A DNA stretch of 27,116 nucleotides from a virus, in IMG/VR virus record IMGVR_UViG_3300028837_000483, positions 1-27,116 of that record; one strand, 5' to 3'. Under the pieces are notes generated by a model. That model was not told the origin of the DNA. It searched no databases and saw only the letters and a program-made list of their open reading frames with translations. The position numbers and the translations under genes are program-made. Positions 7,513 to 25,227 of this stretch are shown here, in pieces (position 1 is the stretch's first letter; each line of letters starts with the position of its first letter).

Positions 7513-10071
7513 TCAGTCCACGAAACAGGTAACGATGTTATCACCTGGCTGGATGCTGAATTGCGCAAAGTCGCTGTTCGCCAGAATCGCGTCGGGGCGC
7601 GGGCCGAAGAAGCTGGATATGATGCGGCGGTTGGGCGGCTTTAGGTAAATGGTCAACGTTTCACCGTCAAGCAAGGTGTAATTAAACAGCAATTCCTTGC
7701 CTATCGTCTCATTGCGCAGGGAATAGAGAACGCGGTCACTGCCTCCGCTAGCCGTGATTTTGATGGTCGGATAGAAATGCGCTGTGCCAGGATTGGTTAT
7801 GATTGTATCTCCTGCCAGGTCGCCAGAACCGGTGGTATCAAAGCCAACGTAAATATCATAATTCTTGCTTACTACAGGATCATAGTTGCAAAGATAGACA
7901 ATGTCTGGGACCGGCGATCCAGGCAAATCAATATCAAGATAAGTCCATACTTCACCGTTCCATCGTGCTATCTTGTCCGCACCCACCACTCCGCCAATCT
8001 CTGTAAATGCGCCAACAACATGTACCGCGCCATCTTTTGAAATTGCAATGTGTCGTATGCTTCCGTTGGCACCAGTACCTAGTGCTGTAAATGTAGTCCC
8101 GTTATATCTGCAAATGCGGTCTGCATTTGCATCGCCACCTGCATTTGTGAAAATGCCACCTATGTAAAGCAAGCCTGTCTTGCTAAGGGCAAGAGCATAT
8201 ACCTGGTTGTTCAGTGCCGTGCCAGACAATGAGGTGTATGCTCCGCCAGCAGAAATATCGTATTGACAGACATAGTCAGCATCGGCATCTCCGCCCGCGT
8301 TCGTGAAGTTACCGCCGATGTAGAGTATCTGATTGGGAATATCTACAGCCAAAGCATATACAGTCAGGTTGAGCGGTGTAGCATTTAGTGCGCTATATGC
8401 GCCTGTAGAGGCGTCAATCTGACAAGCATAATCAGCGTCGGCATCACCGCCTGCATTTGTGAATATGCCGCCAATGTAGGTTGTGCCATCTGCCCCGACT
8501 GTAATAATAAATACTTGATCATTAAGCGGCGTAGCATTTATTGAACTGAAGACTCCCGTGCTGGGATTATATTGACAGAAATAATCCGCATCGGCATCTC
8601 CTCCTGCATTAGTAAAATTCCCGCCGAGGTAAATTGTACCGTCCGGGCCAACAGCCAATGCGTTCACTACGCCATTAAGCGGTGTAGCATTTAGTGCACC
8701 ATACGCCCCAGTTTCAGGATTATATTGTACGATGTAATCAGCATCAGCAATGTTGTCAAAATTAGTAAAATCGCCTGCGATATAGATTGTACTATCCTGT
8801 CCCTCAACAATATCGGCGGTGGTCGCGTATGTCCCCGCCGCGTCTGGCGGCCCCATATCGTCCCACTGTCCTGTGTCCCGATTGCGCCTCGCCACAATGC
8901 GGAACGTTAGGCTGTCCTCTTCATCCAATGTATCGGACGATTCTCCAATCTCGTACCAGAACGGGTCGGGTGCGACGAAGCGGATGGGTAGCTTTTCGTG
9001 AATGCGATTCTCCAGCTTGATGCTCGCCTCCAGGCCCGTCACGTAATGCGCCTTGATCTCCTTGATGACAGTTGCTCCCGTGAACCATAGTCGTATCGGT
9101 TGCCAGCCGGAGACATCTTTGGGATAGCGGTCGTGCGCTAACTCCTCCACTAGCGCCTGGCGCGCCGCATGAATGTCGCACGTCGCGCTGGTGCCTTTCA
9201 ACGTGCCCATCAGTGTGAATGTGCGGGCGTGCGTTTTCTCGGCGTTCAGTTCGCCACCGGGTAGCAGGGCGTACTCGTCCACGCTCAGCGTCAAGGGCGC
9301 GCTGCCCGTGCCCAGGAATTCGCTCACGCCGAAGTTGTAGTCGTCTTTGAGGTCACGCACCCATCCACCTGCGCGGCTCTGTGCACTGCGGCTGGAGGTG
9401 CTAGCGTGCTCGGCGCCGTTCCACTCGCAGCCCTCCTGGTCGCCGTCTACATAGGTCGTCCACCAGTCTGCTTTTTCCTCAACTTGCACGCCGTCCATGT
9501 AGAAATCGCCGCTCGTACCGCCTCCGTTCTGGCGGATGTAGAGCGTGGTTGAACCGTTGGCCTGTGCAGCAGGGAAACCCACGCCGTAGATCGACCAGTT
9601 GGAGTCAATCTCATACATCAGTGTCGGCGCGGTATATGTAGTGTCGTCCAGCGACCAATCCCAGGCCGTCGGCAAGCTGCCACGAACAAATGCCGTGGCA
9701 TAATGTGAGGCGTTTTCTAGTGCGTCCAGCGTGAGTGACATACCGTCGCTGTCGGCGGCTGTCTGGACGCGGTATGAATATACCCCCCACTTGCTGTACG
9801 TAGTGGAGCGGGTGACGGTGCCGCCGCCCAGCGCGGCGTAGTTGCTGGTGGTCTCACCGCTGGGGTTGAGCACCATATTCTCAGTTGCTTCAGGAACGAT
9901 GATCTTCCAGTCAGACACGTCGGTCCTCCTGAATATGCGCGGCGGTACACGCCAGCGTGTGCGCCATAGCGCGTGTACATCTATGTCGCCGCTGCTGTCG
10001 GCCAGCGCCGGCGCGAACAGGCCCAACGTCAGCGCTGCCAGCAGTGCGGCGAATGCGAGCCGTTTTAGCAT
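7513..10071 (-). CDS. Distal-tail-like protein with signal peptide, jelly-roll and beta-propeller insert
   Basis: An 852-residue protein after the tape measure. Start at 10071 is firm (GGAGG, 5 nt spacing). Residues 1-24 form a typical Sec signal (MLKRLAFAALLAALTLGL, then APALA), unusual for a virion protein. About residues 64-215 resemble a carbohydrate-binding jelly roll (NMVLNPSGETTSNYAALGGG). The Dit-like part continues from about 230 to 395 (ending FVAPDPFWYEIGES). About residues 405-735 hold six repeats of about 51 residues with a GGNFTNAGGDADADY core, a predicted beta-propeller. The C-terminus resumes with a tail beta-sandwich ending in FSIQPGDNIVTCFVD. The repeat section is visibly richer in A/T than the flanks, suggesting a later insertion. 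Domain names are inferred from pattern. Confidence 0.7.
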   Translation of the reverse strand: MLKRLAFAALLAALTLGLFAPALADSSGDIDVHALWRTRWRVPPRIFRRTDVSDWKIIVPEATENMVLNPSGETTSNYAALGGGTVTRSTTYSKWGVYSYRVQTAADSDGMSLTLDALENASHYATAFVRGSLPTAWDWSLDDTTYTAPTLMYEIDSNWSIYGVGFPAAQANGSTTLYIRQNGGGTSGDFYMDGVQVEEKADWWTTYVDGDQEGCEWNGAEHASTSSRSAQSRAGGWVRDLKDDYNFGVSEFLGTGSAPLTLSVDEYALLPGGELNAEKTHARTFTLMGTLKGTSATCDIHAARQALVEELAHDRYPKDVSGWQPIRLWFTGATVIKEIKAHYVTGLEASIKLENRIHEKLPIRFVAPDPFWYEIGESSDTLDEEDSLTFRIVARRNRDTGQWDDMGPPDAAGTYATTADIVEGQDSTIYIAGDFTNFDNIADADYIVQYNPETGAYGALNATPLNGVVNALAVGPDGTIYLGGNFTNAGGDADADYFCQYNPSTGVFSSINATPLNDQVFIITVGADGTTYIGGIFTNAGGDADADYACQIDASTGAYSALNATPLNLTVYALAVDIPNQILYIGGNFTNAGGDADADYVCQYDISAGGAYTSLSGTALNNQVYALALSKTGLLYIGGIFTNAGGDANADRICRYNGTTFTALGTGANGSIRHIAISKDGAVHVVGAFTEIGGVVGADKIARWNGEVWTYLDIDLPGSPVPDIVYLCNYDPVVSKNYDIYVGFDTTGSGDLAGDTIITNPGTAHFYPTIKITASGGSDRVLYSLRNETIGKELLFNYTLLDGETLTIYLKPPNRRIISSFFGPRPDAILANSDFAQFSIQPGDNIVTCFVD
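7880..8860 (-). repeat. Six-fold coding repeat (propeller blades)
   Basis: About 153-bp units encode a repeating pattern of YIGG, FTNAGGDADAD, a short connector with NATPLN, and a V.ALAV strand. The FTN core falls at about residues 435 and 689 for the first and last units. The four central units are the most alike in DNA, suggesting recent duplication or gene conversion. Confidence 0.7.
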
Positions 10072-13458: not shown

Positions 13459-13505
13459 ATTATACCACTACGCCAGCTTGACAATCTCGACCAGCGTGGT
13501 ATAAT
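13459..13505. promoter_or_regulatory. Divergent promoter region with symmetric -10 boxes
   Basis: ATTATACCAC (13459-13468) and GTGGTATAAT (13496-13505) are a perfect 10-bp inverted repeat, so each strand carries GTGGTATAAT. On the plus strand TTGACA at 13478-13483 and a 16-bp spacer complete a consensus promoter for the endonuclease gene. On the minus strand the -10 (13464-13459) faces the major tail protein gene but its -35 is weak. The repeat could also be an operator. Confidence 0.6.
13478..13505 (+). promoter_or_regulatory. Consensus promoter of the first HNH gene
   Basis: TTGACA (13478-13483), 16-bp spacer, TATAAT (13500-13505), with TGG before the -10 (extended -10). Both hexamers are perfect matches. 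The predicted start is about 13512, at the start of the structured leader. Confidence 0.85.
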
Positions 13506-13510
13506 CTAGC

Positions 13511-13630
13511 TACCACAACGTCAAGTATATTTGAGTTTAACAATCTATCATCTTGCAATTTCGCCGTCAGGCACTTGACGTTGTGGTAACTCAAGTACAG
13601 CCTGGCGGCGTTTGCTTTTTGGAGAAAACG
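13511..13630 (+). ncRNA. Structured 5' leader A of an HNH gene
   Basis: The leader contains three pairs of complementary segments in the order 1-2-3-1'-2'-3'. Segment 1 is TACCACAACGTCAAG (13511-13525), perfectly complementary to 13574-13588. Segment 2 is TATTTGAGTT (13528-13537), complementary to 13588-13597 with one G-U. Segment 3 (13555-13572) is complementary to 13600-13615 with an 11-bp core including one G-U. The pairings cross, so they imply a pseudoknot or a choice between folds. The same order occurs in the leader at 18519-18639 with different bases in the helices. Ends with GGAG before the ATG. Confidence 0.65.
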
Positions 13631-14146
13631 ATGGAAAATTGGCGTCCAGTGCTTGGCTATAAAGACATTTATGAAGTCAGCAACCTCGGCAAGGTCAGGC
13701 AAATTAAGGCAGGTCCTAAAGTTTCCGAGGGCTATATATTGAAACAACCCACGACAAAAGCGGGATACCGTCGCGTTACCCTTTATTCGCGAACTGGCAA
13801 AAGGTGTTTCTTTGTCCACGTTCTTGTTCTCGAGGCCTTCATCGGTCCCCGCCCCCTTGGCCTGGTTACTAATCACAAAAACGGGGACAAGACCGATAAT
13901 CGCGTTGAAAATCTTGAATGGACCACGCAAAGAAAAAACGTCCATCATGCTATTCGCTTGGGCAATTTCTTTATTGCACGCGGCGAACAACACGGCGGAT
14001 CTAAACTTACTCGCCAGCAAGTCAAAGAGATTCGCTGCCTTCACAAAGCAGGCAGGTATACTAACGCCCAACTTGGCGCGATGTTTGGTGTATCTGACGT
14101 TATGATTTCCAATATCGTAAAACGCCATAATTGGAAACATATCTAG
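13631..14146 (+). CDS. NUMOD4/HNH homing endonuclease A
   Basis: A 171-residue protein on the strand opposite to the late genes. The N-terminus (WRPVLGYKDIYEVSNLGKVR) is a NUMOD4 DNA-binding motif. The middle (VTNHKNGDKTDNRVENLEW, about residues 78-97) is an HNH_3-type nuclease core with Asn-His, Asp and Asn in place. The C-terminal SKLTRQQVKEIRCLHKAGRYTNAQLGAMFGVSD is a helix-turn-helix for target recognition. Start at 13631 has GGAG 6 nt upstream. It ends at TAG 14144-14146, one base offset from the stop of the convergent late gene. The DNA is more A/T-rich than its neighbours. It is a paralogue of 18640-19170. Confidence 0.9.
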   Translation: MENWRPVLGYKDIYEVSNLGKVRQIKAGPKVSEGYILKQPTTKAGYRRVTLYSRTGKRCFFVHVLVLEAFIGPRPLGLVTNHKNGDKTDNRVENLEWTTQRKNVHHAIRLGNFFIARGEQHGGSKLTRQQVKEIRCLHKAGRYTNAQLGAMFGVSDVMISNIVKRHNWKHI

Positions 14147-14322
14147 TCGCCTTCGGGTTGCCTTTCTTCCTTCTTCTTCTGCGGTGTCTTCTTCTTCTCA
14201 TCACAACCGCCGCAGTCTTCCTCCTGCAGCTTGCGATGCCAACCAGGAACGTTTTCAGCCTCGGCCTCCAACTTAGCCTTAGCTTCCTCAATTTTCTGTT
14301 TCGCGCTTTTCACTTCTGCCAT
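14143..14322 (-). CDS. Small Lys/Glu-rich protein with a CGGC motif
   Basis: A 59-residue protein. The ATG at 14322 overlaps the end of the glycosyltransferase gene by 13 nt and has GAGGG 4 nt upstream. Residues 1-25 form a charged helix (AEVKSAKQKIEEAKAKLEAE), followed by GWHRKLQEED, a CGGC motif at about residues 38-41 and a Lys/Glu-rich tail. The two cysteines could bind metal or form a disulfide. Its stop codon (14145-14143) overlaps that of the endonuclease on the other strand. Function unknown; co-translation with the glycosyltransferases suggests a linked role. Confidence 0.7.
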   Translation of the reverse strand: MAEVKSAKQKIEEAKAKLEAEAENVPGWHRKLQEEDCGGCDEKKKTPQKKKEERQPEGD

Positions 14323-15119
14323 ATTGCCCTCAGTATCTTCTCCCAGAATTCCGCGCCTGCGTTCTGAAAGTCTGTCATCTCAACCCACTTCCAGAACGCC
14401 TCTACGTCGCCGCCCAATATCAGCTCGCATCCAGCGGCCCACGCTTCCACAGCTACCCGTCCGCACACGTCATGCTTAACGGGCAGGTGAATGAATTTTT
14501 CGTAGCGGGCCAGCAGTTCAGGCAGGTCGCTGTATGCTACTGGCCCGCAGTAACGGCAAGGCGGGACAAGTTGCGCGTGGGTCATTGGGCTGTTGCTGTA
14601 GCCGTATATGTCCACGGGCGTATCGTTGCGCAATGCCCAATCTACCACATTCTGGATGCCCTTACCGACCTCCACGCGCCCCAACCATATCACGCCTTGT
14701 CGGTCGCCCTCGTGTGCTTTCGCCGCTGCCCTGAATCGCGCCACGTCCACGGGCGGCGGTACGTAGGCGTAAGGTACTCCCACTGGAAACTGGAATATCT
14801 CGCGCTGCTTTGGACTGTTGAATATCACCAGCGCTGCATTGTCTAGTACCCATCGCCGCACATAGGGCGAGCCAAACGGCCAGAGGTCGTGTATGTGCTT
14901 GATCACGGGCCGCTGGCGCAACACTTCCAGCCACGGGTCGCCGTAGAATATGCAGTTATTAAGTATGAATGCGTCAATCTTATCTATCGGCGGGCGCTTC
15001 CTTGGCGGCCACTGCAGCACCTCTACGCCTTCGGGCGCGGCTGCTAGAAAAGCATCGTCGCTCAGTTCTGCGCCGCCCGTCACGTCGCTGTAGCGATCAG
15101 CCAGCCACGCGATCACCAC
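14310..15119 (-). CDS. GT-B glycosyltransferase (GT4-like), second of a pair
   Basis: A 269-residue protein, shorter than usual for the family. N-terminal part: MVIAWLADRYSDVTGGAEL, then IDAFILNN and IKHIHDLWPFGS. The C-terminal nucleotide-sugar half has GVIWLGRVEVGKGIQNVVDWA and HLPVKHDVCGRVAVEAWAAGCELI, the latter being the sugar-nucleotide binding signature with the second Glu of an E-x7-E-like motif, although Asp-Val replaces the first Glu region. It starts at GTG 15119 with GGAGG 7 nt upstream and overlaps the first glycosyltransferase by 7 nt. The acceptor is unknown. Confidence 0.8.
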   Translation of the reverse strand: MVIAWLADRYSDVTGGAELSDDAFLAAAPEGVEVLQWPPRKRPPIDKIDAFILNNCIFYGDPWLEVLRQRPVIKHIHDLWPFGSPYVRRWVLDNAALVIFNSPKQREIFQFPVGVPYAYVPPPVDVARFRAAAKAHEGDRQGVIWLGRVEVGKGIQNVVDWALRNDTPVDIYGYSNSPMTHAQLVPPCRYCGPVAYSDLPELLARYEKFIHLPVKHDVCGRVAVEAWAAGCELILGGDVEAFWKWVEMTDFQNAGAEFWEKILRAIWQK

Positions 15120-16270
15120 AGTTCCGCCTCCACTCGCTCCAGGAATGGCAACCAGTATTTCAGCATCACGTGCGGCCAGGAGTAGTTATCACGAATGAAA
15201 CTTACTCCCTGTTCGGCGTACCGTTGCCGCTCTGCCACCGGCCAGCCGTGCACTTCCTCTAGCGCTGCCCTTATGCCTGCTACGCTGGGTAGCTGCCACC
15301 AGTAGCCTAGCTGTGGCACCCACAGCGGTTGCACGGACCTTGCCGCGATCCCGTTGGCCGTCAATTCTGACATGGCCGAGCAGTCCTGCGTGATGACTGG
15401 ACAGCCGCACGCCTGCGCCTCCGCCACCGGCAGGCAAAAGCCCTCGCCCATCGCTGGATTCAACAGCACGTCGGAAGCACGATAGATGTCCGCCATCTGT
15501 TCGTCAGGCACGCCGACAGCCACCTCGCCCTCATCGGCATACGTAACCGCGCCATTGATTTTCAGTGCCTGTGCTAGTCCTTCCAGGTACACGCCGTCCT
15601 CACTGCCGTATGGCATTCGCGTCGAATGCACATACAGCACCGCTTCGGGATGCTTGCTGTGAAACTCCGCAAAGGCCATCAGCGACTCGGGCCATGCCTT
15701 GCGCGGCGGATAGCCCTTGTTCGCAGCTACCATCGTCACCAGCCATATATCCTCAGAGATGCCCAGCCGTTCACGCGCTTCTCGTTTGTCGCCTGGTTTG
15801 AACACGCCGGTATCAATGCCCAGCGGAATATAAGTTGCTTCGATCCCCGCTTCCCACAACTCATATTTGCCAAACGCGCTGAATGCGACGGGATAGTCAG
15901 CCGTCCTGATACGCGCCAGCATGTGCTCGTTGACTGGCGTGCCGTCCACCGGTATCAGCGCCACCCACGGGCAGGGCAATGACCGACATACATCCTTTGG
16001 CAGTGCCCAGATGTCATACAGGGATATTACGATGTCAGCACCAAAATGCCTGGCGTAGTGCCCCACCACGTCCGCGCCCAGCGGGTCGCGTCGGGCGGGA
16101 TAGATAGTGATTCCGCGCCAGTCTATGGCGCTGCCGAGCAGCCCGGCCAGTCCCAGTATTGCAACCTCGTGACCGAGGTCTTGTAAACGTGCAGAAATCT
16201 CTTTTGTTTGGCGACCGTATCCCGTAAGGGTCCAGGGACTATTTCCCCAAAAAAGCGTTCGCATTGACAT
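15113..16270 (-). CDS. GT-B glycosyltransferase (GT4-like), first of a pair
   Basis: A 385-residue retaining-type glycosyltransferase. The N-terminal domain begins RTLFWGNSPWTLTGYGRQTKEI, with a Gly-rich acceptor-side loop. The C-terminal domain has LVTMVAANKGYPPRKAWPESL and the E-x7-E signature GEGFCLPVAEAQACGCPVI. It sits between the tail terminator and major tail protein genes, an unusual position for such enzymes, so a virion protein is a possible acceptor. There is no clear ribosome site before 16270 or the in-frame ATG at 16264; the plus-strand promoter of the next endonuclease gene overlaps this start, so the insertion may have replaced the original initiation region. Confidence 0.85.
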   Translation of the reverse strand: MSMRTLFWGNSPWTLTGYGRQTKEISARLQDLGHEVAILGLAGLLGSAIDWRGITIYPARRDPLGADVVGHYARHFGADIVISLYDIWALPKDVCRSLPCPWVALIPVDGTPVNEHMLARIRTADYPVAFSAFGKYELWEAGIEATYIPLGIDTGVFKPGDKREARERLGISEDIWLVTMVAANKGYPPRKAWPESLMAFAEFHSKHPEAVLYVHSTRMPYGSEDGVYLEGLAQALKINGAVTYADEGEVAVGVPDEQMADIYRASDVLLNPAMGEGFCLPVAEAQACGCPVITQDCSAMSELTANGIAARSVQPLWVPQLGYWWQLPSVAGIRAALEEVHGWPVAERQRYAEQGVSFIRDNYSWPHVMLKYWLPFLERVEAELW

Positions 16271-16291
16271 TTTGCGTTATTCTGGTATACT
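16264..16291 (+). promoter_or_regulatory. Promoter of HNH gene C
   Basis: TTGACA (16264-16269), 16-bp spacer, TATACT (16286-16291), with TGG before the -10. Same geometry as the other two endonuclease promoters. The -35 overlaps the first codons of the opposing glycosyltransferase gene. The leader is short (about 20 nt) and unstructured. Confidence 0.8.
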
Positions 16292-16317
16292 AATGCACCA
16301 CAGCGAAAGGATATAAG

Positions 16318-17139
16318 ATGCCTAAAGGACAACACTTGCGTAAATTGTCAGATAATGATATTCAAGAAATTGTTCGCATCTATACCACTCCCAACCCAGA
16401 CGGGACATGGACAGGGTGCACTGCAATTGCCCGCCTGTTCTCTGTTACAGATACGACAATTCAGCGACGTCTCAAACAACAAGGTGTCAAGATGCGCACA
16501 CTCAAAGAAGCGCACGCGCACGGCAAAACATGTCGCCCCATTGTCAATCTCCCTCCGCCAGGAGATTCGCCGCCATTATGTAAATGTGGATGCGGGGAAT
16601 CTGTCAAATGGAATCGCCGCAAAAAGCAATGGTATGTCTATATCAAAGGACACTATCGCCAGCACCAACTATATCATGATAAACAATGGCTAGAGCAGGA
16701 ATATCTACACAAGGGCCGTTCTATGCTCGACATAGCCACTGAATGCGAAGTATGGCCAACGTCTGTCGCAAAGTTCATGCGTAGATTTGACATCCCCACT
16801 CGCACAGTCTCAGAATCCTTGCGCCTCTCAGGTTCCGTGCGCGGCCCCAACAATCCTGCTTGGAAAGGCGGAATTGCAAAGTGGGAATATTCCCACGATT
16901 GGAAAGCAATCTGCCAAGACATCAAGAATCGGGACAGTTGGATTTGTCAACTTTGCGGCGAACAAAGAAAGCGATGGGGACACAAGCTACATGTTCATCA
17001 CATTGACGGCGACAAGCTAAACAACCATCCCCACAACTTGATTTCACTCTGTGCCAGTTGCCATGCTCCTGTTCATGGCGATAATGAAGCTGTTAATGTT
17101 CTATGTGCTATAGCTATTAGAAACACACAAGTCAAGTAG
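16318..17139 (+). CDS. HNH homing endonuclease C with two helix-turn-helix segments
   Basis: A 273-residue protein. The first helix-turn-helix is near residues 10-60 (TAIARLFSVTDTTIQRRLKQQG). A Cys-rich element CKCGCGE follows at about residues 88-94. A second helix-turn-helix is at about 125-155 (SMLDIATECEVWPTSVAKFMRR). The motif NNPAWKGG precedes a classic zinc-finger HNH nuclease: WICQLCGEQ, LHVHHIDGDKLNNHPHNL, LCASCHAPVH. The ribosome site AAAGGA is about 6 nt before ATG. The stop lies 6 bp past the stop of the convergent tail terminator gene, an 8-bp overlap. It belongs to a different HNH type from A and B, so it is an independent arrival. Confidence 0.9.
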   Translation: MPKGQHLRKLSDNDIQEIVRIYTTPNPDGTWTGCTAIARLFSVTDTTIQRRLKQQGVKMRTLKEAHAHGKTCRPIVNLPPPGDSPPLCKCGCGESVKWNRRKKQWYVYIKGHYRQHQLYHDKQWLEQEYLHKGRSMLDIATECEVWPTSVAKFMRRFDIPTRTVSESLRLSGSVRGPNNPAWKGGIAKWEYSHDWKAICQDIKNRDSWICQLCGEQRKRWGHKLHVHHIDGDKLNNHPHNLISLCASCHAPVHGDNEAVNVLCAIAIRNTQVK

Positions 17140-17542
17140 CGTGCTCAATTATCACGTCCACTATCTCGCGGTGGACTTTCTGCGCGCTGCTCGCTGCGGG
17201 CCACATCAGCCCAGTCGCCTTGATTCGATTGGCGACGAAAGCATAGCCGATGGTGCATTCATCACTATGTCCGTCCCACGCTGCCCACACCTGGTCTGCC
17301 AGCGCCGCCGCATCGTCACCGGTGTCGTCGTAGCAGTTGAATTGCACTCTACTGACTGTGCGCCCGCCCGCGCCGTCGTGCGTCCTGTATGGTGATGAAT
17401 CATCGCTGACAGGTGCCAGGTAGGAGATAGCAGGATACGTCACGTTCTGCGGCAATTGGTCGGGATAGCATCGCGTCCCAATCAGCGCCGCCGTGCCCGC
17501 GTGCCCTGCACATCGGTCGTAGACATCTTCCCGCAGCGTCAT
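17132..17542 (-). CDS. Tail terminator / completion protein (DUF3168-like)
   Basis: A 136-residue protein between connector-type genes and the tail tube gene. The beginning (LREDVYDRCAGHAGTAALIGTRCYPDQLPQNVTYPAISY) and later SRVQFNCYDDTGDDAAALADQVWAAWDG fit the tail terminator family, which caps the growing tail tube and joins it to the head. Separated from the major tail protein by the glycosyltransferases and two endonuclease insertions. The ribosome site is weak (ATAGG). Confidence 0.75.
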   Translation of the reverse strand: MTLREDVYDRCAGHAGTAALIGTRCYPDQLPQNVTYPAISYLAPVSDDSSPYRTHDGAGGRTVSRVQFNCYDDTGDDAAALADQVWAAWDGHSDECTIGYAFVANRIKATGLMWPAASSAQKVHREIVDVIIEHAT

Positions 17543-17550
17543 TGCCTATA

Positions 17551-18474
17551 TTACGCCGGGTCAGTTTCCGTCGTGCCCTTCCAGTTCTGCATCCAGTGGT
17601 TGGCCGTTGTCACATCCAGGTAAGGATTCTGCGTCATCGTGGCCTTCCCATAGTTGGCGCGGTTGCCAGCGATAATCCAGTTAGCCACGTTGGCATGACC
17701 AATTGTGATAGCCAAACCATCAGCAGCATCAGCACCTAAAGCGAAGGTGTTGTCCAGAATCATGCCATCCCCGGCAACGCCCATCACATAGATACATTTG
17801 ACTGCCGCCCCCAAGTTGCCAAAGACGTTACGCTCGTATCGAAGCTGATACCCAGCAACTGAGTAGATGCCTCCATCGGTGAGCGAACCCTGGAAGTAGT
17901 TCTCCACCACATGATGCCCGCCGCCTGCCGTTCCGTCCAACAGGACGCCGTAGGCCCCGAAGCCGAAGTAGTTGTCCCTAAAGCAGCAGCGGTGAACGTT
18001 GGTCGTGGATACCTGAATGCCTGCTTTCCCGGCACCCGCCCTGGTTTCAAAGCCCTGAATCAGCACCCAGTTCGAGGCGACGACGAACACGTCCTCAACG
18101 GCGGTGCGTGCGTCCAACCTGATTCGTGAGTAAAAGCCGGGGGCAGGGTAGCCGATGACATTGGTGCGCGCCGCGTCGATAGTGATTGGAAACGTATCAC
18201 CGGGCAATCCACCCACGATGATATTATCCACCACGTCATCACTATCCGTGCAAAGTGAGATAGCGCCATCTGTGCCGCCGATAGTCAACTTGGGGGCCAG
18301 TGGGTCCGTACCTGGATTGTCATCGTCCCCACCGTTGGCAGCAGAGTTTACAAAAATGGTCACGCCATTGCTCGCCCTCAAGTTGCCAAAGGTATCCACC
18401 AAGTCCCGATTATAGTCATCAGGATCGCGCTCCATAAAGTAATTCTTCAGCCATTGATTCGTCCGAACGGTCAT
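17551..18474 (-). CDS. Right-handed beta-helix protein in the head-tail cluster
   Basis: A 307-residue protein with a strong ribosome site (AGGAGG) before 18474. It contains repeated short beta rungs of the parallel beta-helix type: VLIQGFETRAG, CCFRDNYFGFGAYGVLLDG, HHVVENYFQGSLTDGGIYS, LRYERNVFGNLGAAVKCIYV, MILDNTFALG, WIIAGNRANYG. Such folds are common in surface-exposed phage proteins that bind or cleave polysaccharide. The position between the gp10-like and tail terminator genes is unusual for a tailspike. It may be a head or neck appendage. No catalytic residues can be assigned. Confidence 0.65.
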   Translation of the reverse strand: MTVRTNQWLKNYFMERDPDDYNRDLVDTFGNLRASNGVTIFVNSAANGGDDDNPGTDPLAPKLTIGGTDGAISLCTDSDDVVDNIIVGGLPGDTFPITIDAARTNVIGYPAPGFYSRIRLDARTAVEDVFVVASNWVLIQGFETRAGAGKAGIQVSTTNVHRCCFRDNYFGFGAYGVLLDGTAGGGHHVVENYFQGSLTDGGIYSVAGYQLRYERNVFGNLGAAVKCIYVMGVAGDGMILDNTFALGADAADGLAITIGHANVANWIIAGNRANYGKATMTQNPYLDVTTANHWMQNWKGTTETDPA

Positions 18475-18490
18475 TCTATTATCCTCCTAT

Positions 18491-18518
18491 TTGACAAGCT
18501 GCCGTTTTCTGGTAGAAT
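18491..18518 (+). promoter_or_regulatory. Promoter of HNH gene B
   Basis: TTGACA (18491-18496), 16-bp spacer, TAGAAT (18513-18518), with TGG before the -10 (extended -10). Same geometry as at 13478 and 16264. Confidence 0.8.
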
Positions 18519-18639
18519 GTCGTTGTCACACGTTAAGCGTTACTTGCACTTAAAATCCTATCTTGGCAAACGCGCCGCTACCGCTTGACGTGTGACAACG
18601 CAAGTATTGTAGCGGCGTTTGCATTTGTAAAGGAGTACG
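18519..18639 (+). ncRNA. Structured 5' leader B of an HNH gene
   Basis: Three complementary segments again appear in the order 1-2-3-1'-2'-3'. Segment 1 is CGTTGTCACACGTTAAGC (18521-18538), pairing with 18583-18600 with one G-U. Segment 2 is TACTTGC (18541-18547), pairing with 18600-18606. Segment 3 is GCAAACGCGCCGCTAC (18566-18581), pairing with 18609-18622 except for a 2-nt bulge. The 3' ends of leaders A and B share GCGGCGTTTGC, while much of the helix sequence differs with pairing kept. AAAGGAG precedes the ATG. Confidence 0.65.
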
Positions 18640-19170
18640 ATGATTGAACAATGGCGCGATGTAGTTGGTTATGAAGGTTATTACCAAATTAGCAATCTGG
18701 GACACGTAAAGCGTATCCACGCAATCACTTGCGCTAAAGTAGGCCATATTCTTAAGCCAGATATTGCCCATAATGGATACCTTAGAGTCACTTTGTGCAA
18801 ATTCAATAAGCCCAAGAAGTTTCCTATTCACCATCTAGTACTCATTGCCTTCGTTGGTCCGCAACCATCACCAGTCCATCAATGCAATCACGCAAATGGA
18901 GACAGGGCAGATAACAGACTAGAAAACCTGTCTTGGGTTACGCCTTCTGAAAATCAACAGCATTCTTTTAAAGTTCTTGGTCGGCGCAGTAGTGGCCCTA
19001 AAGGGGAGCGCTGCGCACTTTCAAAACTCACGACTAAACAAGTCATTGAAATCAGGCGCTTGCACGCTTCTGGTAAACTCACTGCGCTTGAACTCGCGTC
19101 CATGTTTCACGTAGCCAGAAGAACCATATACGGCATTGTAAACAGGAAAAGGTGGAAACACATTTCCTAG
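18640..19170 (+). CDS. NUMOD4/HNH homing endonuclease B
   Basis: A 176-residue paralogue of endonuclease A with the same layout: NUMOD4 (WRDVVGYEGYYQISNLGHVK), HNH_3 core (QCNHANGDRADNRLENLSW, about residues 80-98), and a C-terminal helix-turn-helix (SKLTTKQVIEIRRLHASG, ELASMFHVARRTIYG). The ribosome site AAAGGAG is 4 nt before the ATG. It ends at TAG 19168-19170, sharing a CTAG with the stop of the convergent late gene. It is A/T-richer than the surrounding late genes. The two copies differ throughout, so they are not a recent duplication. Confidence 0.9.
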   Translation: MIEQWRDVVGYEGYYQISNLGHVKRIHAITCAKVGHILKPDIAHNGYLRVTLCKFNKPKKFPIHHLVLIAFVGPQPSPVHQCNHANGDRADNRLENLSWVTPSENQQHSFKVLGRRSSGPKGERCALSKLTTKQVIEIRRLHASGKLTALELASMFHVARRTIYGIVNRKRWKHIS

Positions 19171-24739: not shown

Positions 24740-25158
24740 CAAATCGCCGTAGTCACGACCGCGCTGTCGATCTGGCCCGCTGTCCCGCCAACCGCACCCA
24801 CTTGCACCTGGTACTGGACGTATAGCACTACGCCGTCAAGGTCAGAAATCAAAAGCACTGATTGGTCAGCGTCTACGTTGAATTCCATGTATTCATCTTC
24901 TATGGACACAGCAGCGGCCCCGACCGTGCGAATAGCTAGTGCGTATTCATTCGTGCCAGCTGACGTATGCTTCGCCAGTACCCGCACCCGTGCGTTAGTA
25001 GAGCCGTTGATGTCGAGCTCCACGTACAGGCCGATGAAACGCGCCCCGCCGACCGTCAACTCGCTGCCCAAATCAGCCCAGTTCGCCGTCAGGTCTTGCG
25101 CTGCCGCTATGAGCGTGTGCGGCCCGCCGTATCGTCCGTCAAATTCCAGATTTGCCAT
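24739..25158 (-). CDS. First gene of the operon behind the leader terminator; beta-rich protein
   Basis: The ATG at 25158 follows GGAG by 4 nt. An in-frame upstream start at 25248 would run through the terminator hairpin and encode a basic extension, and is rejected. The 139-residue protein is beta-rich (ARFIGLYVELDINGSTNARVRVLAKHTS, DEYMEFNVDADQSVLLISDLDGVVLYVQYQVQVG), resembling a virion decoration or fibre domain. It starts 9 nt after the U-run of the terminator, so its expression requires read-through. Unknown family. Confidence 0.65.
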   Translation of the reverse strand: MANLEFDGRYGGPHTLIAAAQDLTANWADLGSELTVGGARFIGLYVELDINGSTNARVRVLAKHTSAGTNEYALAIRTVGAAAVSIEDEYMEFNVDADQSVLLISDLDGVVLYVQYQVQVGAVGGTAGQIDSAVVTTAI

Positions 25159-25166
25159 AAGTCTCC

Positions 25167-25227
25167 AACAAAAAGAGCGCCGCCTTCCGGCAGCGCTTGT
25201 GTACGCTGTCAACAGAAGGCGGCGCTC
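25167..25227 (-). terminator. Intrinsic terminator in the leader of the late operon
   Basis: On the minus strand, GAGCGCCGCCTTC (25227-25215) pairs perfectly with GAAGGCGGCGCTC (25187-25175), and an inner CAGCG/CGCTG stem lies in the loop. The U-run TTTTTGTT follows (25174-25167). It lies about 25 nt after the predicted start site of the promoter at 25287-25259 and just before the ATG at 25158, so it acts as an attenuator or a barrier needing antitermination. Confidence 0.8.

Follow-up and report, generated by a model that had tools for sequence, protein, structure and literature searches.

Two viral homing endonuclease genes share a predicted crossing-helix leader RNA

Introduction

Homing endonucleases must be made in amounts that allow them to spread without harming their phage. 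How might this balance be struck at a locus where nuclease genes lie antisense to structural genes? The window studied here (the whole stretch of DNA analysed, 27,116 bases of a virus record) carries tail tube, tape-measure and capsid (with DUF6260) genes on its minus strand, and three HNH-type genes on the plus strand, antisense to them. Each of the three has its own sigma-70-like promoter.

13631–14146, plus strand: gene A, NUMOD4-HNH homing endonuclease (Pfam NUMOD4 5.7e-14, HNH_3 7.5e-13)
16318–17139, plus strand: gene C, with only a weak Pfam HNH match
18640–19170, plus strand: gene B, NUMOD4-HNH homing endonuclease (Pfam NUMOD4 6e-15, HNH_3 7.7e-11)

The minus strand holds several features of separate note. 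A tail-region protein (7513–10071) contains tandem repeats of a motif like FTNAGGDADADYxCQYNPSTG. Two glycosyltransferase-like genes (14310–16270) lie among the tail genes; they occur in the phage L052 and are absent between the same neighbours in L050 and L051. At 25174–25226, a perfect 13-bp inverted repeat (GAGCGCCGCCTTC) is followed by TTTTTG and then by GGAG, which is the ribosome site of the gene downstream on that strand; the result is a terminator-like hairpin immediately before a start codon.

Results

The leaders of genes A and B each contain three segments and their complements between promoter and ribosome site.

Leader A
13478–13505, plus strand: promoter from sequence, TTGACA, 16 nt, TATAAT; −10 box to helix 1, 6 nt
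13511–13526, plus strand: segment 1, 16 bp, perfect, partner 13573–13588
13528–13536, plus strand: segment 2, 8–9 bp with one G-U, partner 13589–13597
13555–13572, plus strand: segment 3, 11 bp plus a 4-bp extension, partner 13600–13615
13573–13588, plus strand: segment 1′, pairs with segment 1
13589–13597, plus strand: segment 2′, pairs with segment 2
13600–13615, plus strand: segment 3′, pairs with segment 3, ends 15 nt upstream of the ATG

Leader B
18491–18518, plus strand: promoter from sequence, TTGACA, 16 nt, TAGAAT; −10 box to helix 1, 2 nt
18521–18539, plus strand: segment 1, 19 bp with one G-U, partner 18582–18600
18541–18547, plus strand: segment 2, 7 bp, partner 18600–18606
18566–18581, plus strand: segment 3, 14 bp with a 2-nt bulge, partner 18609–18622
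18582–18600, plus strand: segment 1′, pairs with segment 1
18600–18606, plus strand: segment 2′, sharing base 18600 with 1′
18609–18622, plus strand: segment 3′, ends 17 nt upstream of the ATG

The order read in the initial annotation (promoter, 1-2-3-1′-2′-3′, ribosome site, NUMOD4-HNH gene) is exact in both leaders, and a scanner for three mutually crossing stems recovers the same segments. Helices 1, 2 and 3 measure 16, 9 and 11(+4) bp in A and 19, 7 and 14 bp in B, and the joints 1>2, 3>1′, 1′>2′ and 2′>3′ span 0–2 nt in both (in B, one base belongs to both 1′ and 2′). The ribosome sites, GGAG at 13621–13624 in A and AAGGAG at 18630–18635 in B, fall outside segment 3′. The crossing-stem score is 78 for A and 84 for B, whereas 4000 dinucleotide shuffles per leader never score above 57 (z of 6.5 and 7.7); 0 of 4000 shuffles of either leader reach the observed score. 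Dinucleotide shuffles served as controls because crossing order survives reversal, which makes reversed sequences unfit for the purpose. A three-helix match at 25097–25226 in the first scan was judged to be partly chance, a real hairpin together with coding matches. Gene C provides an internal negative case in the same phage: its promoter is TTGACA-17-TATACT, its leader is only ~30 nt long, and no crossing structure was found in that leader.

An ortholog of gene B, 80% identical in protein, is present in two contigs of a related phage (L015 and L016), inserted at the same syntenic site. The L015 leader keeps the order 1-2-3-1′-2′-3′ with helices of 16, 9 and 13 bp, while helices 2 and 3 and the inner part of helix 1 are made of different letters. 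A relative with 52% identity (L064) is likewise antisense and adjoins a tape-measure gene; in its leader helix 1 (17 bp, with a bulge) crosses helix 3 (22 bp), and no helix 2 adjoining segment 1 was found. Shuffle tests of two relatives also count in support of the leader structure. When A, B, L015 and L064 are aligned at the junctions, all cells are paired (100%), with both-side changes in 16 of 16 columns of helix 1 and 9 of 10 of helix 3, and in 6 of the 7 columns of helix 2 among A, B and L015, the only three independent leaders with all three helices. Because the helices were picked for being paired, these counts show only that complementarity is not due to conserved sequence, and significance rests on the shuffle test. 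The compensatory changes first noted between A and B hold, and they are reinforced by L015, where the helix letters are mostly different, and by L064 for helices 1 and 3 only. Since pairing is kept in the relatives despite the changed letters, the leader RNA is probably real, and sequence comparison confirms a crossing, covarying leader common to genes A and B. The three-helix layout, initially described as the shared plan, stands for A, B and the B ortholog only; the core common to more distant genes is the crossing pair 1-3-1′-3′, to which helix 2 is an addition.

Non-Watson-Crick juxtapositions in the helices, read on the plus strand, comprise nine G-U and one A-C, the latter at an outer helix edge. 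This is the pattern expected if selection acts on the sense RNA, and it argues for such selection over selection on DNA or antisense RNA. The −10 box precedes helix 1 by 2–6 nt in A, B and L015 and by ~4 nt in L064, so the predicted transcript start lies at or within a few nucleotides of segment 1. At the other end, segment 3′ stops 15–19 nt upstream of the ATG in all four leaders, and the Shine-Dalgarno sequence is free of structure in each.

Comparison with syntenic phages indicates that leader and gene form one unit. At the B site, L052 has only a 15-nt intergenic gap that lacks both gene and leader, and its A site has no endonuclease gene; the A site of L050 is a gap of ~25 nt. The joint absence of leader and gene in L052 and at the A site of L050 implies that they come and go together, which bears out the earlier suggestion that the leader RNA might belong to the mobile unit. 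In viral contigs the DNA pattern CAAGTA-N3-9-GCGGCGTTTGC gave 29 matches and 0 leaders. By blastn, neither leader A (searched against phages) nor leader B (searched against plasmids) had a relevant match, and a first scan of genome contigs found no relatives.

Can the three helices coexist? Nearest-neighbour energies of helices 1 and 3 are −27.3 and −25.7 kcal/mol in A and −25.6 and −25.0 kcal/mol in L015, and nested-fold predictions pick one or the other, never both. As the two helices are nearly iso-energetic, energies do not separate nested folds from a pseudoknot. In a model of rigid A-form helices with linker limits, which ignores threading and electrostatics, the three helices fit together without clashes in A and L015, as they do in B once one outer helix 1 pair opens. 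Simultaneous pairing is thus possible, being permitted rather than proven by this coarse model, and the idea that joints of 0–1 nt bar helices 1 and 2 from coexisting is contradicted for A and L015. The initial annotation held that crossing implies a pseudoknot or a switch; one or the other is indeed implied, but the coarse steric model does not force a switch in A, B or the B ortholog. As complementarity, the three mutually crossing stems of an ABCABC pseudotrefoil are present in A, B and L015.

For other NUMOD4-HNH genes, leaders delimited by their promoters were examined in 58 tests at 49 loci. A crossing pair 1-3-1′-3′ at p ≤ 0.01 appears in 11 of the 58, against 0.6 expected, a count that includes duplicates and the four leaders of the A/B/L015/L064 group. 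Control ORFs at the same loci have a crossing pair in 8 of 170 cases, three of which are endonuclease leaders (A and L064 again, and the second NUMOD4-HNH gene of L004). Against these controls, enrichment beyond the founding group is modest. Distant NUMOD4-HNH genes with their own promoters often appear to carry the simpler crossing pair. In several of them, segment 3′ contains or abuts the Shine-Dalgarno sequence: GAGGTG in L154 and L073, AGGAGG in L071 and GGAG in L105. Before a gene without a Pfam match, L091 has a crossing pair at 670–808 (TCTCGCTTG..GCCTATCC..CAGGCGAGA..GGGATAGGC), possibly a further member of the leader class.

One set of alignable leaders, family X, comprises L066, L004 (2273–2371), L120 and the isolate Polaribacter phage P12002L (KR136259). 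Both of its crossing helices covary: 98.1% of cells are paired, 6 of 13 pairs are changed on both sides (slid controls reach at most 2), and the covariation score is 0.54, against at most 0.17 with partners slid. Drawn from four sequences and distinct from a formal R-scape result, this covariation is suggestive support for a wider leader class; searching with a covariance model built on family X added no member to the four. Segment 3′ of family X is doubled in tandem, the second copy lying no more than ~8 nt from the start codon; each copy covaries with segment 3, the second as well as the first. The order 1-3-1′-3′ with compensatory changes in both stems, which is that of an H-type pseudoknot, is found both in family X and in the A/B/L015/L064 comparison. 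Leaders with a doubled 3′ before the start codon are located as follows.

L066: 1390–1488
L004: 2273–2371
L120: 1396–1494
L289: 726–822

In these four leaders an extra small hairpin between segments 1 and 3 seems to covary too.

Discussion

The leaders have four constants: an own promoter, segment 1 at or near the transcript start, a 1′ flanked by 3 and 3′, and a 3′ that adjoins or covers the translation start. The reading we consider somewhat better than even is that they are 5′-terminal, cis-acting RNA control elements of a mobile NUMOD4-HNH cassette, acting on translation initiation as a pseudoknot or a switch. The cassette would bring its own promoter, with transcription starting no more than a few bases from segment 1. 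As the RNA emerges, helix 1 (1:1′) would close first, its loop holding segments 2 and 3 captive; the closing of helix 3, adjoining the ribosome site in A and B or covering it in some relatives, would then complete a long H-type pseudoknot, whose two loops would be linked in three leaders by a short third helix. Only complementarity and spacing are conserved, so that the fold would carry the function. By setting or delaying ribosome loading, the leader would probably limit or time the output of nuclease from a gene that lies antisense within a late operon. The second 3′ copy of family X, beside the start codon, points at translation initiation, while the free ribosome site of A, B and L015 means that direct masking is not the mechanism there. 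The transcription start, that the helices form simultaneously, that they control translation, and the direction of this control are what we infer from sequence.

The strongest rival to translation control is mRNA stabilisation, in which helix 1 would seal the 5′ end while the pseudoknot, with the ribosome site left open, would protect the message from 5′-end-dependent decay and from invading antisense RNA of the phage operon. We regard this as unlikely, if worth weighing: helix 1 does lie at or near the predicted start, the Shine-Dalgarno sequence is free in A, B, L015 and L064, and the fold alone is conserved, but a simple hairpin would suffice to stabilise, and this rival does not account for a 3′ that covers the ribosome site, as in L154, L071 and L105, or for the two copies of 3′ by the start codon of family X. 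Rather less probable is an autogenous operator: the endonuclease or a phage protein would bind the crossed RNA and repress translation of its own message, much as gp32 acts at the T4 gene 32 pseudoknot. Gene 32 likewise has a 5′ pseudoknot that precedes the ribosome site (PMC535899), and across A, B, L015 and L064 the leader accompanies a single protein family; yet helix letters are almost wholly different between orthologs with 80% identical proteins, and no conserved protein-contact motif was found.

Transcription attenuation, with helix 3 and a U-run terminating unless helix 1 or a factor prevents it, seems improbable to us. A U-run follows 3′ in A (TTTTT), L003, L096 and L186, but not in B, L064, L154, L071 or L105, and the GC-rich hairpin with a direct U-run typical of an intrinsic terminator, present in A and some relatives, is absent from B, L064, L154 and L071. 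The disfavoured alternative is a DNA-level element, the inverted segments forming a binding site, operator or homing target. The leader does belong to the mobile unit, and I-TevI represses its own promoter by binding DNA (PMC2988022). The crossing order would be useless in duplex DNA, though, and the nine-to-one excess of G-U over A-C is strand-specific, as expected only for sense RNA, leaving this reading very improbable. A ribozyme or intron was rejected, there being no conserved core and no Rfam match; for the P3-P7 crossing of a group I intron core there is likewise no Rfam match, and the leaders are only ~90–145 nt long.

The initial annotation knew of no described RNA with this layout, and in part this stands. 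Rfam 15 gave no match at the gathering threshold for the window and eight relatives, permissive scans of A, B, L015 and L064 returned only matches far below gathering scores, and a search of openly accessible papers found no description of such leaders. The ABCABC order itself has a name, the pseudotrefoil, and is rare but known (51 RNA STRAND sequences against 1688 simple H-type; PMC3390330). It has the identical order of three crossing stems but is a topology class rather than a family; stems in the window's leaders measure 16–19, 7–9 and 10–14 bp.

Leader-RNA control of homing endonuclease translation is a function class already known in T4 (PMC2988022); the crossing architecture is new. 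The T4-type genes I-TevI, I-TevII, I-TevIII, segB and mobE have leader hairpins that sequester the ribosome binding site, and seg43 of Aeromonas phage 25 has a hairpin upstream of it (PMC2988022). Like them, the window's leaders place structured RNA directly before a phage homing-endonuclease start, and as in seg43, where the hairpin base can sit just upstream of a free ribosome binding site, the site itself can stay open. The T4-type structures, in contrast, are nested hairpins; they arise mostly on read-through transcripts, and the gene's own late promoter avoids them. Here the helices cross, and transcription from the gene's own promoter includes the complete structure. The promoters of A and B precede the whole structure instead of lying inside it, and the Shine-Dalgarno sequence, unpaired in A, B, L015 and L064, is paired in L154, L071 and L105.

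Two other pseudoknots invite comparison. In a phage mRNA, the T4/RB69 gene 32 operator places a 5′-proximal H-type pseudoknot ahead of the ribosome site, with a fold that is kept as its sequence drifts (PMC535899), but it is ~28 nt long and serves an autogenous single-strand-binding repressor, whereas the window's leaders and their relatives have helices of 7–22 bp, sometimes a third helix, and a nuclease gene. In timP mRNA, mutually exclusive folds precede a harmful gene and a pseudoknot sets translation (PMC11228461); that pseudoknot activates translation and is broken by an antisense sRNA, and no such sRNA was identified for the window's leaders.

A broader reading, which we hold tentatively and below the translation-control proposal, is that homing endonuclease leader RNAs conserving only the crossing of their segments are widespread and fast-evolving, the window's being a long-stem, three-helix pseudotrefoil that acts as a kinetic translation switch with competing partners for segment 3. 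Unrelated-looking leaders with the same crossing plan and almost no conserved letters would be missed by scans based on sequence or nested structure. Such leaders would add an RNA control class to mobile endonuclease genes and offer natural long crossed helices for folding studies, and being short and cloneable they make the restraint of antisense-inserted endonuclease genes testable. A different arrangement occurs in Enterococcus phage FX417 (L321, ~340–401), where the endonuclease Shine-Dalgarno sequence can pair with CCTCCT inside the gene's own promoter, so that masking would be confined to read-through RNA, as it is for T4 I-TevI.
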